Positions 1 through 5,525 of a stretch of DNA of 51,453 nucleotides are shown piece after piece. Position numbers and translations under genes: made by a program. This DNA is from Acidimicrobiales bacterium. Its GTDB lineage: Bacteria; Actinomycetota; Acidimicrobiia; Acidimicrobiales; MedAcidi-G1. How positions within the stretch are numbered: position 1 is the first letter of the stretch; each line of letters starts with the position of its first letter. The notes below the pieces were generated by a model that was given only the letters and a program-made list of their open reading frames with translations, had not been told where the DNA came from and did not search any database. Where the stretch lies: NCBI GenBank assembly GCA_030747595.1, contig JASLKK010000011.1, positions 49,157-100,609 on the forward strand, read 5' to 3'.

Positions 1-378
1 GAACACGAAGGCCAGGCCCATCACCCATGTGGTCTGGGGAAGACGCTCCGCAATGGTCTCGACCACCGGACCTCGTGACTGCCAGGAGATGACCCGGGTC
101 CGCTCGCCGCTGCCGATCTGGACGTTGAACAGCTGTTCGATCAGGCTGATTGGCTCGTGGATCATGACCTGCTTGACCCACAGGAGCCACTTGACCAGGA
201 ACGGGTCGTTGACCCCCATGGACTCGCGGATCTGTTCCCGAACCTCTCGGGGGATGGTTAGCGGCAGGTGGGAAGTTGGATCGCCGGGCGCCAGATCAAG
301 GATGGCGAAAATGATGAAGCTGATGGCAACCAGCGTCGGCACGGCAATCGCCGCTCGGCGACCGATAAACCAGAGCAT
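1..378 (-). CDS. ABC transporter permease, DppB/OppB-type (N-terminal part, cut by window edge)
   Basis: The first 126 codons of a membrane permease are visible; the rest lies beyond base 1. The frame opens with ATG at 378 after a purine-rich GGGGGAGGGAG ribosome site. The start reads MLWFIGRRAAIAVPTLVAIS, a positively charged N-terminus followed by one hydrophobic helix (about residues 8-28) and then APGDP. This layout is typical of DppB/OppB inner-membrane permeases of peptide-type ABC importers, where the first helix precedes a large external segment. It lies downstream of the substrate-binding protein on the same strand, separated by a strong hairpin, and downstream of two peptide-type ATPases, so it should form the channel of that importer. 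The partner permease (DppC type) would be expected outside the window. Family assignment is good; the transported substrate is unknown. Confidence 0.85.
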   Translation of the reverse strand, partial: MLWFIGRRAAIAVPTLVAISFIIFAILDLAPGDPTSHLPLTIPREVREQIRESMGVNDPFLVKWLLWVKQVMIHEPISLIEQLFNVQIGSGERTRVISWQSRGPVVETIAERLPQTTWVMGLAFVF

Positions 379-516: not shown

Positions 517-3267
517 TTAGTCCCGAGCCCACTCCTCCAAGTTCCACAACTCTGCATCCCATGGGTTGAGCTTGTACCCGGTCAGCGAGTTGGACGCTGC
601 CGAGACGCTGCCCCGGTGGATCAACGGAATGATCGAGTAGTTGCCAACCACCAAGTCGTTCAGGGCAATGGTGATCTCGTTACGGCGATCGATATCCGCG
701 GTCTGGGTCAGCTCGGCGTACAGAGCGTCATACTCGTCGCTCTGGAAGCGCTGAACATTGCTGCCCTGCCAATTGGTGCTCTCGCCGCTGATGTTCGACG
801 AGGTCCAACTGCCCATGTAGGCCTGCGAATCCACACCAGCTGCACCGTTGGTGTACATCTCGATGTCGGCGTAGAACTTGCCGTAGGTATCCGGGCTACC
901 CGGATCGCCACCGAAGAACACCGAAGCATCAATGTTTCGAAGTTCGGTATCCACACCGATCTTGGCCCAGTCCTGCTTGACGAGCTCCTGGGTGGCCTGA
1001 CGCACCGTGTTGGTGGACGTCTGGTACAGGATCTTCATCGGCATGCCGTCGGGCGTCTCGCGCACCCCATCACCATCGGTGTCGAGGTAGCCAGCATCGT
1101 CCAACAACTGGTTGGCCAGATCGATGTCCTGGGTCAGACACTCGTCGTTAGACGTCGACGTCTGGGCAGGCGGCGCAGGCCACACGTTGCAAGTCGGACG
1201 ACCGGCCTCGCCGTAACCGACGTCGACCATGGTCTGACGGTCCAGGGAAATGGAGAGGGCACGGCCGACCACCGGATCGGTAAGGAACGGGTGGGGGTTG
1301 GTGCCGTCGAGCCACTCGGAACGGTCGTCGCCGAGACCCGGGTCCGGGTTGGTCTGGTTGACCATCATGCGCTCGACCATGGTCGAGAAGGCCGAGATGA
1401 CCCTGCCCTTTCCGCCGGCCAACATGCTGGCCAGGATCTCCGGCTCAACCTGCAGGTTCCATGCATAGTCGGCTTCACCGAGCTCCAGAACGGAGCGGGC
1501 CGTCGAGGGAGCATCGCCGCCGCCCTTGATCACGACACGCCCGAAGTAGGGCTTACCGTCGGGCACGCCGCGGTAGTTCTCGTTCATGACGTAGACCGCG
1601 GTGTCATTCGTGGTGAACGACTCGATCTTGAACGGACCAGTACCGATCGGACCAAAGTTCTCATCCGTGCACTCGGCCGAGGCCGCGCCCACGCAGTCGC
1701 CGAACTGGGCCCGAGAAATAACCGGGAAACTGTTCGAAACGAACGGCACGTAGGGGAACGGAGTCGCCTCAGCAAAGTTGATCGTGATCGTGAGATCGTC
1801 GTCAGCAACCACAGAGGTCACACCGTCGAAGCCCGACGCACCGGTACAACCGGTATCGGGATTCGAGCAGTACTCCCAACTGAAGACCACATCGTCGGAG
1901 GTCAACGGGGTGCCATCAGAGAACACCACACCCTCGTGCAACTTCCATGTGATGCTGGTCAAGTCCTCGGAAACGCCACCATTGGCAACCGTCGGGATCA
2001 CGGTGGCCAGCGCGGGAACGAGCACGCCCTGGTCATCGAACTCGGCCAACGGCTCAAGGATCACAGAAGAAGCATCACGGTCCTTCCAACCACCCGACAG
2101 GTACGCGTTCAGCGTGGATGCGGCCTGCCAGTAAAGGATGGTCACGGTGCCGCCTTCGCCGGCGCCGCTGGACGTCATCACGACTTCGACGTCGCTGATG
2201 TTGCTCAGGAACGACGTGTTCACGAACGCGTCATAGGAGTCCAACGCCTCAGGGATCTCACCCTGCTCGACGAAGAAGTCCATCTGCTGCTTCATCACGT
2301 CCTGGACGGTCCCGCCCAACCACGCGTCGGACAACTGGGTCGCCCGATCCGGGAACGAGAACATGTCCAGTAGGGCATTGGAGCCCTCCACCGTCATGCC
2401 CGCCGCTTCGGCAATCGTGGCCTCCAGGGCACGGCGGCCACCGGCGTAGGCCGCGTTGGCCTCCTCGGTCACCTGCAGGAACGTCTCGACGACGTCCGGA
2501 TGATCGATGCCGAACTGGGTCGGGATCGAGATGATGTCGAAGACGCGGATGCCGATGGCCTCCTGCTCCGAACCGGTCATCACCAAGTTGCCGCCGGCGT
2601 CAAGCATCGACAGCACACCGCCGCCGAAGGCACACGCCATGGCCACGTCGCCGCTCTCGAAGGCTGCAACCGCTGCCGCACCACCGTCGGAGGGAACGTG
2701 CTCGAAGCTGTCCAGCGGCACCCCGAGGTGCCCCAGCATCTTCAGCAACTTGTAGTGGGTGACGTTGCCGACCGGGGCGTAGATCTTCTGTCCGGCCAGT
2801 GTCTCGGCCGCGTTGGCCGCCGTCACGCCGTAGTCCGGATGCGCTACGCAGTTGTCGGCGTCCGCATAGCTCACGGCCACACCGACGATCTCCAGTTCGG
2901 ACCCTGAGGTCACGAAGTTGGCGAACGGGGTCAAGCCCTGGCTGTAGGCAATGTCGATGTCGCCGGACTCCATGGCCAACGCCATGTCGCCGCCGGAACC
3001 GAACGGCAGCCAGTTCACGGTCATGCCGAGACGCTCGTCGTAGGTCTCTTCAACCTGGGCGACCTGGTTGGCCGTCGGCCACTCCAGGAAGTACGCCACG
3101 TTCAACTCGGACAGCGACTCGGCCGGAGCCTCGGTCGCTGCCGGAGCCTCGGTCGCTGCCGGAGCCTCGGCCGCTGCCGGAGCAGCTGCGTCATCGTCGC
3201 TGCCGCATGCCCCCGCAACCAAAGTAAGGGCCGCTAGTACGGCGACCAGACGAATAATTTTCTTCAA
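517..3267 (-). CDS. Fused two-domain ABC substrate-binding lipoprotein (taurine/NMT1-like + oligopeptide-type SBP_bac_5)
   Basis: This 916-residue exported protein carries two different binding-protein domains. Residues 1-21 form a lipoprotein signal ending in LVAGAC (lipid-carrying Cys21), followed by an acidic and Ala/Thr/Pro/Glu linker to about residue 50. Residues about 52-362 resemble TauA/NMT1-type binding proteins (LNVAYFLEWPTANQVA, then GDIDIAYSQGLTPF and a C-terminal FVEQGEIPEAL helix). Residues about 373-916 resemble DppA/OppA-type SBP_bac_5 proteins (WKLHEGVVFSDGTPLTSDDV, GTGPFKI). Normal family sizes are about 330 and 520-560 residues, so both domains look complete. The second half has no signal peptide of its own; a short Ser/Gly linker joins them. 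Start is TTG at 3267 behind GAGGGG. The surrounding ATPases and permease are peptide type, so the C-terminal domain fits the transporter and the N-terminal domain is the addition. Ligands are unknown. Confidence 0.88.
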   Translation of the reverse strand: MKKIIRLVAVLAALTLVAGACGSDDDAAAPAAAEAPAATEAPAATEAPAESLSELNVAYFLEWPTANQVAQVEETYDERLGMTVNWLPFGSGGDMALAMESGDIDIAYSQGLTPFANFVTSGSELEIVGVAVSYADADNCVAHPDYGVTAANAAETLAGQKIYAPVGNVTHYKLLKMLGHLGVPLDSFEHVPSDGGAAAVAAFESGDVAMACAFGGGVLSMLDAGGNLVMTGSEQEAIGIRVFDIISIPTQFGIDHPDVVETFLQVTEEANAAYAGGRRALEATIAEAAGMTVEGSNALLDMFSFPDRATQLSDAWLGGTVQDVMKQQMDFFVEQGEIPEALDSYDAFVNTSFLSNISDVEVVMTSSGAGEGGTVTILYWQAASTLNAYLSGGWKDRDASSVILEPLAEFDDQGVLVPALATVIPTVANGGVSEDLTSITWKLHEGVVFSDGTPLTSDDVVFSWEYCSNPDTGCTGASGFDGVTSVVADDDLTITINFAEATPFPYVPFVSNSFPVISRAQFGDCVGAASAECTDENFGPIGTGPFKIESFTTNDTAVYVMNENYRGVPDGKPYFGRVVIKGGGDAPSTARSVLELGEADYAWNLQVEPEILASMLAGGKGRVISAFSTMVERMMVNQTNPDPGLGDDRSEWLDGTNPHPFLTDPVVGRALSISLDRQTMVDVGYGEAGRPTCNVWPAPPAQTSTSNDECLTQDIDLANQLLDDAGYLDTDGDGVRETPDGMPMKILYQTSTNTVRQATQELVKQDWAKIGVDTELRNIDASVFFGGDPGSPDTYGKFYADIEMYTNGAAGVDSQAYMGSWTSSNISGESTNWQGSNVQRFQSDEYDALYAELTQTADIDRRNEITIALNDLVVGNYSIIPLIHRGSVSAASNSLTGYKLNPWDAELWNLEEWARD
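3122..3184 (-). repeat. 18-bp tandem repeat encoding an Ala/Thr/Glu/Pro linker
   Basis: About three and a half copies of an 18-bp unit (GCCGGAGCCTCGGTCGCT on the plus strand, third copy with one change) lie inside the binding-protein gene. They encode repeated ATEAPA units just after the lipid-modified Cys, forming a flexible spacer from the membrane. The copies are almost identical, so length variation between strains is likely. Confidence 0.8.
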
Positions 3268-3463: not shown

Positions 3464-4495
3464 CTAGATGGCCGGCACCAGGTGACAGGCCACCCCGTGG
3501 CCGGGAGACACTTCGCGCCAGACAGGCACCTCACTCCGGCACCGGTCGACGGCTTCGGGACACCGGGTGGAGAACACGCAACCTGGTGGGGGTGACGAGG
3601 GGCTGGGGATATCGCCTTCGAGCACAATCTTCTCCCGGGTGGCCTCGGCCGCTGGGTCGGGAACGGGCGCCGAGGACTGCAACGCCCGGGTGTAGGGATG
3701 CAACGGGTTGTCGTAGAGGCCGTCGACGTCGGCCAACTCCATGATCCGGCCGAGGTACATCACCGCCACCCGGTCAGCGATGTGGCGGATCATGCCAAGG
3801 TCGTGCGAGATGAACAGGTAGGTCAGGCCCAGCAGGTCCTGGAGTTCCTCCATCAGGTTGACCACCTGAGCCTGGATGGAGACATCGAGGGCGGCAATCG
3901 GCTCGTCGCACACGATGAGATCGGGGTTCAGGGAAATGGCCCGGGCGAGGCCGATTCGCTGACGCTGCCCACCCGAGAACTCGTGGGGGTAGCGGTTTGC
4001 GTGCTCAGGGTTCAGCCCTACCAGTCCGAGTAACTCCTCGACACGTTCGTTGCGTTCACGCGACGTCATCGAGAGGTGCTCGACTAGGGGCTCACCGATG
4101 ATCGAACTGACGGTCATCCGTGGATTGAGGCAGGCATGCGGATCTTGGAAGACCATCTGCATCCGCGGCCGGACCTTCCGGAGCTCCCTGGCCGACAGGT
4201 CGGCCATGTCGCCGCCATCGAAGACCACCGTGCCCTCCGTCGGCTCCTCGAGGCGCAGGAGTGTGCGACCAATGGTCGACTTGCCTGACCCTGACTCGCC
4301 GACCAGACCGAGGGTCTGACCACGCATGATTTCGAACGACACGCCGTCGACGGCCCGCACGGCGCCGACCTTGCGGCGGAGTGCTCCCTTGGTCACAGGA
4401 AAGTGCTTCTTCAGATCACGGACCGAGACCAGTACCTCAGGCACTTCGGGTGCCTCAGGTGCCTGTTCCTGCACGACTGTCAGCTCAGCGTCCAT
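3464..4495 (-). CDS. Oligopeptide/dipeptide ABC transporter ATP-binding protein, DppF/OppF type
   Basis: This 343-residue cytoplasmic ATPase energises the peptide-type importer. It shows Walker A ([12 protein letters not shown]), the ABC signature ([14 protein letters not shown]) and Walker B ([14 protein letters not shown]), then the oligopeptide-transporter C-terminal region with the Cys pair in [15 protein letters not shown] typical of DppD/DppF. Its ATG (4495) overlaps the end of dppD by 11 bp, so the two are probably translationally coupled and act as a heterodimer. About 200 bp separate it from the downstream binding-protein gene. Assignment to the F partner rests on order and on the [17 protein letters not shown] region typical of that side. 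Confidence 0.93.
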
Positions 4496-5525
4496 GGCCG
4501 ACCTGCCCTTTGGCTGTCTCGTCGCTCTGGGCGCCGACCAGTACTGGCACCTCGTTCAGCCAGCAGGCGACCTTTCGAGTCGCCGAAACGGCTACCAGGA
4601 CCGGGTTCTCCCGGTCGCATCGGTCGAAGGCGTGCGGGCATCGGGGAGCGAATGAACAACTGGCGGGCGCCGACCGGAGATCCGGAGGCTGCCCCTGGAT
4701 ATTGACCAGCTTGTCCCCACGGGAGGTGGCCGACGGTAGCGAAGCCAATAGGCCCTGTGAGTACGGATGGCGGGGCTGGGCATAGAACTCGTCGACCGGA
4801 GCATCCTCCACGATCTGGCCGCCGTACATGACCAGCACCCGGTCGACCAGGCCGGCCACCACGCCGAGGTCATGGGTGATCCAGATCACCGCCATGCCGA
4901 GTTCCTGCCGGAGGCCCTTCACCAACTCCAGGATCTGGGCCTGAATGGTCACGTCTAGGGCTGTCGTGGGCTCGTCGGCCACCAAGATTTTCGGGTTGCA
5001 GGCCAGGGCGATGGCGATCATCACCCGTTGGCGCATCCCACCGGACAGCTCGTAGGGGTAGCACCGGAGGCGCTCCTCCGGAGACGGGATGCCAACCAGT
5101 TCCAACAGTTCAAGCGCCCGTAACCGCATCGCCTTCCGGCGACCCGGTTGATGGACGGTGAGGGACTCCACGATCTGGTCGCCCACGGTGACCACCGGGT
5201 TCAGCGATGTCATCGGATCCTGGAAGATGAAGCCAACCTTGCCGCCCCGGACCTCCCGCAGATCCCCGAAGTCCATCGAAAGGAGGTCGTCGCCCTCGAA
5301 GATCGCCTGGCCGGCCGAGATCTCGCCGGGTGGCGAGGGGATGAGCCGCAGCAGCGACATCATCGTGACGCTCTTGCCTGAGCCGCTCTCGCCGACCACG
5401 CCGACCACCTCGCCGTCGGCCAGGTCGAACGACACCCCGTTGACGGCGTGCACTGTCCCGTCCTGAGTGTTGAACCGCGTCGTCAGATCAGTGACCCGCA
5501 GGACCGGCGTGGTGTCCACCGTCAT
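4485..5525 (-). CDS. Oligopeptide/dipeptide ABC transporter ATP-binding protein, DppD/OppD type
   Basis: A 346-residue ABC ATPase with Walker A ([12 protein letters not shown]), signature LSGGMRQRV, Walker B ([13 protein letters not shown]) and the C-terminal oligopeptide-transporter region ([15 protein letters not shown]). The open frame extends upstream to 5768, but that part overlaps the M20 gene and has no family similarity. ATG at 5525 is chosen because it starts [14 protein letters not shown], the normal N-terminus, and lies 4 bp after the M20 stop. Pairs with the overlapping dppF gene. The tight spacing to the amidohydrolase suggests hydrolase and importer are made from one transcript. 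Confidence 0.93.

Follow-up and report, generated by a model that had tools for sequence, protein, structure and literature searches.

A lipoprotein joining a TauA-type and an oligopeptide-type binding domain in Acidimicrobiales, and a tauBC permease without an adjoining receptor gene

A stretch of 51,453 nucleotides from an Acidimicrobiales bacterium (GenBank assembly GCA_030747595.1, contig JASLKK010000011.1, positions 49,157 to 100,609; the window) contains a single open frame of 916 codons plus stop (517..3267, minus strand) for one lipoprotein with two complete substrate-binding domains: a TauA-type domain (TAU) followed by an oligopeptide/dipeptide-type SBP_bac_5 domain (SBP5). The fusion is real and recurs in related genomes, whose tauBC permease genes have no receptor gene beside them. 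We somewhat favour the view that the protein is a two-headed receptor, in which SBP5 feeds the neighbouring OppBCDF importer and TAU feeds tauBC in trans. Below, G000 is the genome of the window and other G and L numbers denote compared genomes and loci.

The fused gene and its parts

ORF (open reading frame) analysis lists a TTG start, the earliest start codon in the frame. The protein begins with a signal peptide ending in the lipid-carrying Cys21 (residues 1-21; 3205..3267, minus strand like all features described here), with a lipobox-like LVAGA-C21 judged by eye, and continues with a Pro/Ala/Thr/Glu-rich linker recognised from the sequence (residues 22-54; 3106..3204), the TAU domain (residues 55-355; 2203..3105), a second linker of about 17 residues (residues 356-372; 2152..2202) and the SBP5 domain (residues 373-916; 520..2151). 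A sequence-only reading had proposed two complete binding domains of different families in this frame, behind a single signal peptide and a single lipid Cys, and the analysis bears this out. The Ser/Gly linker it described between them is indeed short, but its sequence, NISDVEVVMTSSGAGEGG, is Ser/Gly-rich in the second half only.

The C-terminal half matched SBP_bac_5 (PF00496) over residues 423-826 (E 3.3e-65), passing with 221 bits the Pfam gathering cutoff of 32.4, and NCBIfam Opp4A over residues 367-903 (E 4.7e-38), under the curated cutoff (131 bits versus 650). For the N-terminal half, Pfam returned sub-cutoff matches only (OpuAC, NMT1_2, Phosphonate-bd). NCBIfam taurine_ABC_bnd (TIGR01729) covered residues 67-353 with E 9.3e-34, also under cutoff (117.2 bits versus 304.25), and by sequence the closest solved structure is Escherichia coli TauA (E 7.4e-20). 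In the corresponding sequence comparison with solved structures, the SBP5 half matched oligopeptide-type binding proteins. In an AlphaFold2 model of the whole protein the SBP5 half was good, with ten-residue means of the predicted local distance difference test (pLDDT) of 68-98 from residue 371, but the TAU half was poor, probably owing to few TAU rows in the input. TAU was therefore folded alone, reaching a pLDDT of 92.7. The best Foldseek match of this model was TauA 6ssy (TMq 0.82), and the SBP5 half matched AppA 1xoc (E 9.6e-35) and YliB 1uqw (TMt 0.87), which points to a TauA fold and an oligopeptide-type fold, respectively, in the predicted structures.

The junction in related genomes

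A search for the same full-length architecture in relatives, which the sequence-only reading had suggested, found the TAU-SBP5 junction in five of the 17 genomes of the genus (G000, G002, G014, G015 and G071). The fusions of G002 and G014 are 98% and 92% identical to that of G000. The junction sequence is intact in G000, G002, G014 and G015, the G015 gene being interrupted by a contig gap well downstream of it. In G071 (same species) the first ~52 residues lie past the contig start and the rest is one open frame, and in UBA12569 (L039) the junction also lies within one open frame. The public records with the fusion fall into three accession groups (JAAZZG/JAAZXY, JASLKB and DPMC), which, to go by their names, would be separate projects.

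Between G000 and G014 the synonymous divergence (dS) is 0.505 for TAU and 0.535 for SBP5, and such similar values indicate that the halves were probably joined already in the common ancestor of the two. The ratio of nonsynonymous to synonymous change (omega) is 0.044 for TAU and 0.110 for SBP5 in this pair, which means purifying selection on both, and 0.04-0.06 across the fused TAU domains. That the gene might be an assembly artefact at repeated binding-protein sequences is scarcely credible: the N-terminal linkers do consist of repetitive sequence and several G000 contig ends fall within binding-protein genes, but the identical junction recurs in G014, where the TAU DNA is 89.6% identical, and in records of all three accession groups. 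Misassembly of the fusion gene was rejected on these grounds. Two separate genes, the state that would speak against a fusion, do exist in the sister species G001 and G012, while the junction is intact throughout the fusion lineage.

Among the best 80 of 178 relatives, SBP5 was plus-strand at 78 loci. At eight of these the frame extends upstream by at least 150 aa; four are TAU fusions (L038-L041), and the other four (L117, L098, L073 and L067) have an ordinary signal peptide after a spurious upstream frame. TAU thus occurs at 4/78 loci, and at the SBP5 loci read no TAU was found on SBP5 outside the genus.

The 168 contig ends of G000 include at least seven in binding-protein genes (C8, C12, C14, C17, C19 end, C22 and C24 end) and five more in genes with a similar lipoprotein start (C1, C2, C6, C19 start and C24 start). 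Some of them have 76-102 identical bases in common, so binding-protein modules act as assembly repeats and seem to break the assemblies of these genomes. Misassembly may affect some relatives (G006 and contig C30 of G002). In G006, an M20-OppD-OppF run leads into an OpuAC-OpuAC gene, with genes for an ABC (ATP-binding cassette) ATPase and a BPD_transp_1 permease next in line (C2, L263), and OppB lies with just the last 25 SBP5 codons at a contig end (C26, L337); a search of this genome found no SBP_bac_5 gene. The arrangement is either a rearrangement or a misjoin.

A tauBC permease without a neighbouring receptor gene

The tau locus was read in 15 genomes. At 11 loci a class III aminotransferase gene is separated from tauB by ~50-90 bp that hold no TAU gene, and all 11 genomes concerned carry TAU fused elsewhere: to SBP5 in the five genomes named above, to LivK in G001, G007, G012 and G013, to SBP_bac_8 in G068 and to receptor-Bmp in G019. 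TAU stands beside tauB at three of the 15 loci. tauC is present in all 15 genomes with no internal stops. The pump genes score best against the TauB and TauC models, in each case under cutoff. In G000, tauBC is found on a separate contig (C14), with no tauA between or beside aminotransferase, tauB and tauC; the TAU of this genome is therefore not the gene beside tauBC that a TauA would be expected to be. At E 1e-10 a single TAU match was obtained in G000; there are two in G002, of which the second lies on the small contig C30.

TAU at E 1e-25 was carried by 27 of 395 genomes of the class, 21 of them outside the family. In these 21, TAU is single or a TAU-TAU tandem (six genomes) as judged by frame length, and tauB lies in the fetched flank in 17; of the remaining four, three have the flank largely filled by a second TAU copy, and G113 showed no tauB. 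Frames with two TAU copies were noted in G211, G081, G233, G401, G525 and G538, from other families of the class.

A decaying tau locus was observed in G069 (C26, L175), with TAU reduced to a relic of 63 codons, a broken tauB and no N runs; a TAU search of this genome found no fused copy. Genes for a molybdopterin oxidoreductase and iron-sulphur subunits adjoin tauBC in G000 (C14, L167:884-5314), and the gene after tauC in G015 (L170) is Pta-like. The tauBC neighbourhood may be a sulfonate degradation locus.

The TAU pocket

Q30, E106, T132 and D205 are given as taurine contacts of E. coli TauA (PMC6906117). The equivalent residues are F, D, V and D in 13/13 TAU copies, fused and free, so that three of the four are changed and the pocket is the same in fused and free heads. 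G61 and G79 of TauA are kept. N55, D84 and S109 were left out of the comparison, the letters in the paper not matching the numbering used. The probable ligand is a small taurine-related amino compound; taurine itself is doubtful, since the pocket residues differ.

Other partners of TAU and the origin of the head

TAU is fused ahead of LivK in a liv-type operon in four genomes, the gene being complete in G001, G012 and G013 and truncated at a contig end in G007; in G001 and G012 SBP5 is free-standing with its own signal. The G068 protein joins TAU to SBP_bac_8, and that of G019 combines TAU, a receptor domain (Pfam ANF_receptor) and Bmp, the receptor domain being akin to the Peripla_BP_6 tandem of G020 by a custom profile. 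A separate TAU gene beside tauB is found in G018, G020 and G024, the G024 sequence beginning inside TAU.

Over the first 66 bases, the G014 fusion is 86% identical to the stand-alone SBP5 of G012 and 62% to the G012 TAU-LivK gene, which in turn is 92% identical to the free LivK of G014. In these G012/G014 pairs, the head thus sits behind the signal of the host protein, and TAU looks like a cassette placed between the host signal peptide and mature SBP5, in agreement with the suggestion from the sequence-only reading that the N-terminal domain was added. The stand-alone SBP5 of G001, however, carries a LivK-type signal (82-85%; 58% to the G014 fusion over the same bases), so signals are exchanged too, which speaks against a fixed host-signal rule.

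The motifs SLSEL before TAU and DVEVV after it are common to the SBP5 and LivK fusions and absent from the free TauA of G018 and G020. In the inter-domain linker, DVEVV is shared with three TAU-LivK fusions and SSGAGEGG matches the stand-alone SBP5 of G001. In a maximum likelihood tree of 11 TAU domains the TAU-SBP5 heads form one clade (ultrafast bootstrap 99), with the G012 TAU-LivK head as sister (90) and the LivK fusions of G001 and G013 outside. This tree and the shared linkers support a single origin of the SBP5 fusions from a LivK-fused head; the simplest reading of the order would be tauABC, then TAU-LivK, then TAU-SBP5.

Contig C30 of G002 (3978 bp, L142) and C37 of G068 (L173) are 97.7% identical over 1745 bp including TAU, past which the partners differ (Peripla_BP_6-OpuAC in L142, SBP_bac_8 in L173). 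C30 may stem from another organism and have been binned with G002 in error.

What the two heads may serve

A receptor with two heads would work as follows. Each head would dock its own permease, SBP5 delivering to the adjoining OppBCDF and TAU, on its linkers, to the tauBC coded on another contig. Two or more heads per lipid anchor could raise receptor number or co-locate uptake systems. Docking, ligands and benefit are all inferred. In GlnPQ the tandem binding domains bind independently across a 14-residue linker (PMC8025302), so tethering of this kind is workable.

Several points weigh against this reading. G000 is an incomplete metagenome-assembled genome (95.87%), and a separate tauA could be missing from the assembly, although tauA would then have to be absent from the assemblies of all five fused genomes. 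Another NMT1-type receptor could serve tauBC, for example the Peripla_BP_6-NMT1 protein on contig C12 of G000, whose gene adjoins permease and ATPase genes of its own. The changes Q30 to Phe, T132 to Val and E106 to Asp make taurine itself doubtful. The order of the head moves is not fully settled, with G012 unplaced in the tauBC tree (support 50), and two LivK types, 68-71% identical to each other, cut across the TAU and tauBC trees. Type one comprises G000, G001, G007 and G013 (92-98% identical) and type two G002, G012 and G014 (85-91%), as compared at L167, L168, L169, L135, L136, L137 and L143. TAU is found with either type, and G000 differs in type from its close relative G002, so LivK parts have been exchanged as well. 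The LivK frame of G000 runs into a contig end, the final 102 bases of which equal an OpuAC end plus linker in the C12 OpuAC-OpuAC gene; that of G002 opens with a scored OpuAC end, and LivK of G014 is free.

The sequence-only reading had considered that one permease might take two ligands. Both heads would then feed the neighbouring OppBCDF, as the GlnPQ domains do on a shared translocator. They lie in the same operon and on the same chain, and linked GlnPQ domains do serve one transporter through their linker (PMC8025302). However, tauB genes are the neighbours of TAU elsewhere, the presence of TAU on LivK, SBP_bac_8 and receptor-Bmp proteins ties it to no one class of permease, and a tauBC of its own lineage persists without a receptor gene in the fused genomes. 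We therefore regard a shared permease as unlikely.

TAU might alternatively be kept for crowding or co-localisation only, capturing ligand close to the cell but having no permease of its own, or acting as a spacer that lifts SBP5 off the membrane. The TAU-TAU tandems in other families, like the OpuAC-OpuAC tandems and Peripla_BP_6 repeats in family f1, suggest that head number matters. A spacer would nevertheless hardly require invariant pocket positions or an omega as strict as that of fused TAU, and we consider this explanation improbable. It is very unlikely that the protein takes up a conjugate, one part held by each domain, for the M20 enzyme to cleave: an M20-type amidohydrolase is encoded in the operon, but such a gene also accompanies an unfused SBP5 with its own signal (L051), the TAU pocket positions compared are unchanged across unrelated partners and in the free copy beside tauB, and the SBP5 loci read outside the genus are without TAU. 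Conjugate uptake, also raised by the sequence-only reading, was rejected accordingly.

The operon around the fusion

On the minus strand the operon runs M20 amidohydrolase, OppD, OppF, fusion, OppB, OppC. NCBIfam matches identify the M20-type amidohydrolase (TIGR01891; 5530..6699), an OppD-type ATPase (4485..5525) and an OppF-type ATPase (3464..4495). The 427-aa ORF of OppD begins too early; its start likely lies at 5525, as the family match begins near residue 86. The 5' part of an OppB-type permease gene (BPD_transp_1) occupies 1..378 and runs beyond the window, followed by OppC (OppC_N, Pfam) and then by genes for a class II aldolase, a SnoaL-like protein and a Rieske protein. The importer genes are therefore of the peptide type, as had been proposed; the M20 gene, described as adjacent, shares the operon but lies three genes upstream.

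Other mixed-family fusions in the family

Fusions of binding domains from different families recur in this Acidimicrobiales family. Pfam searches of fetched open frames found Bmp-SBP_bac_3-OpuAC and Peripla_BP_6-NMT1 in G000, OpuAC-SBP_bac_5 in G010, Peripla_BP_6-SBP_bac_5 in G015, G024 and G069, and TAU-Peripla_BP_6-OpuAC on contig C30 of G002. Bmp-SBP_bac_3-OpuAC also occurs in G011, with a second SBP_bac_3 stretch, and in G001, with the start of a second OpuAC. The fusion in the window is one of four SBP_bac_5 genes of G000. The other three (C17, C22 and C24), in which Pfam detects SBP_bac_5 alone, each have an N-terminal extension in frame that is cut by the end of the contig. Over 145 and 86 bases, the extensions of C17 and C22 share 87-91% DNA identity with the final part of the Peripla_BP_6 match in the C12 gene and the sequence that follows, and that of C24 is 99% identical to C22 over 89 bases; upstream heads may be presumed for all three.

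Frames of at least 750 aa make up 7/28 OpuAC and 22/52 Peripla_BP_6 rows in 18 hand-chosen family genomes, versus 2/147 and 4/148 among the best matches listed elsewhere in the order, where samples were completeness-filtered. These counts left out eight OpuAC rows that are TAU, sub-cutoff Peripla_BP_6 rows and the family rows (3 and 2) that fell within the order samples. The rows are not independent of one another, as some frames are counted twice, and a long frame does not always mean a fusion. With family rows cut at the weakest outside-listed E-value, the fractions become 4/12 for OpuAC and 5/12 for Peripla_BP_6, three of the five being TAU-LivK. One frame with two OpuAC domains outside the family (G211) indicates that the fusion habit is enriched in the family, not exclusive to it.

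Wherever these proteins have permease genes as neighbours, the last head suits them: SBP5 with BPD_transp_1 (C11, C17, C22, C24 and G010:C41), LivK with LivF/LivG-type ATPases (C14) and with BPD_transp_2 genes at the C8 end, which would belong to the same operon as the C14 LivK, OpuAC-OpuAC with an ATPase and BPD_transp_1, and NMT1 with two BPD_transp_1 genes and an ATPase. No permease was found in the fetched flank of the G000 Bmp-SBP_bac_3-OpuAC gene, and none was recognised by eye in the flank of G068 TAU-SBP_bac_8. In a wider interpretation, which we hold as slightly less than an even chance, the lineage has a modular receptor layer of mobile binding-domain cassettes, giving lipoproteins with two to four heads of different families, receptor and permease genes being uncoupled genome-wide. 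Cassettes would insert into other binding proteins, directly behind the signal peptide and ahead of the mature part, the last head usually matching the adjoining permease and guest heads serving permeases coded at a distance. Recombination within the module and linker sequences held in common would swap heads from one operon to another.

Peripla_BP_6 was also seen in one frame with a beta-lactamase-family domain (PF00144) in G002 (C3, L275) and G012 (C41, L277). In G020 (C13 and C36; L269, L270, L271) tandem Peripla_BP_6 copies with equal scores share one frame and are perhaps recent duplications.

Comparison with known systems

ABC importers are usually read as a receptor encoded in the same operon as the permease it serves, and substrate predictions follow from this. 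Where receptors of different families share one chain and at least one permease lacks an adjoining receptor gene, such operon-based prediction would fail. The fused and unfused sister species provide a natural experiment on whether a head tethered to the receptor of another importer can serve a permease. Multi-domain binding proteins as such are known already. Among the titles and abstract beginnings listed from the PMC open-access literature we found no report of mixed-family binding-protein fusions on one free lipoprotein, nor of head exchange between operons; the nearest known cases there were GlnPQ, OpuA and AdcA.

OpuA carries binding domains of the same type on the transporter itself, and AdcA combines one binding-protein domain with a ZinT-like domain for the same metal. 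The fusion is comparable to OpuA with its OpuAC domain in keeping binding domains near a permease (PMC2861598, PMC11065425), and to the zinc lipoprotein AdcA in being a two-domain Gram-positive uptake lipoprotein (PMC7858048). In contrast to AdcA it would hold two complete receptors for different importers, and its Pfam and NCBIfam matches include no ZinT-like domain. With E. coli TauA (6ssy), the closest solved relative of the N-terminal head, it shares the fold by its predicted structure, and relatives of TAU lie beside tauB; it differs in three of four side-chain ligand contacts (PMC6906117) and in the position of the head outside the tau operon. A further parallel is found in GlnPQ, where two binding domains for different ligands are likewise held on one chain by a short flexible linker. 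The GlnPQ domains are attached to the transmembrane subunit, and it is this single transporter that they supply (PMC8025302), whereas here the ORF stops after SBP5, OppB is a separate gene, a free lipoprotein carries domains of different families, and a second permease is encoded elsewhere in the genome.

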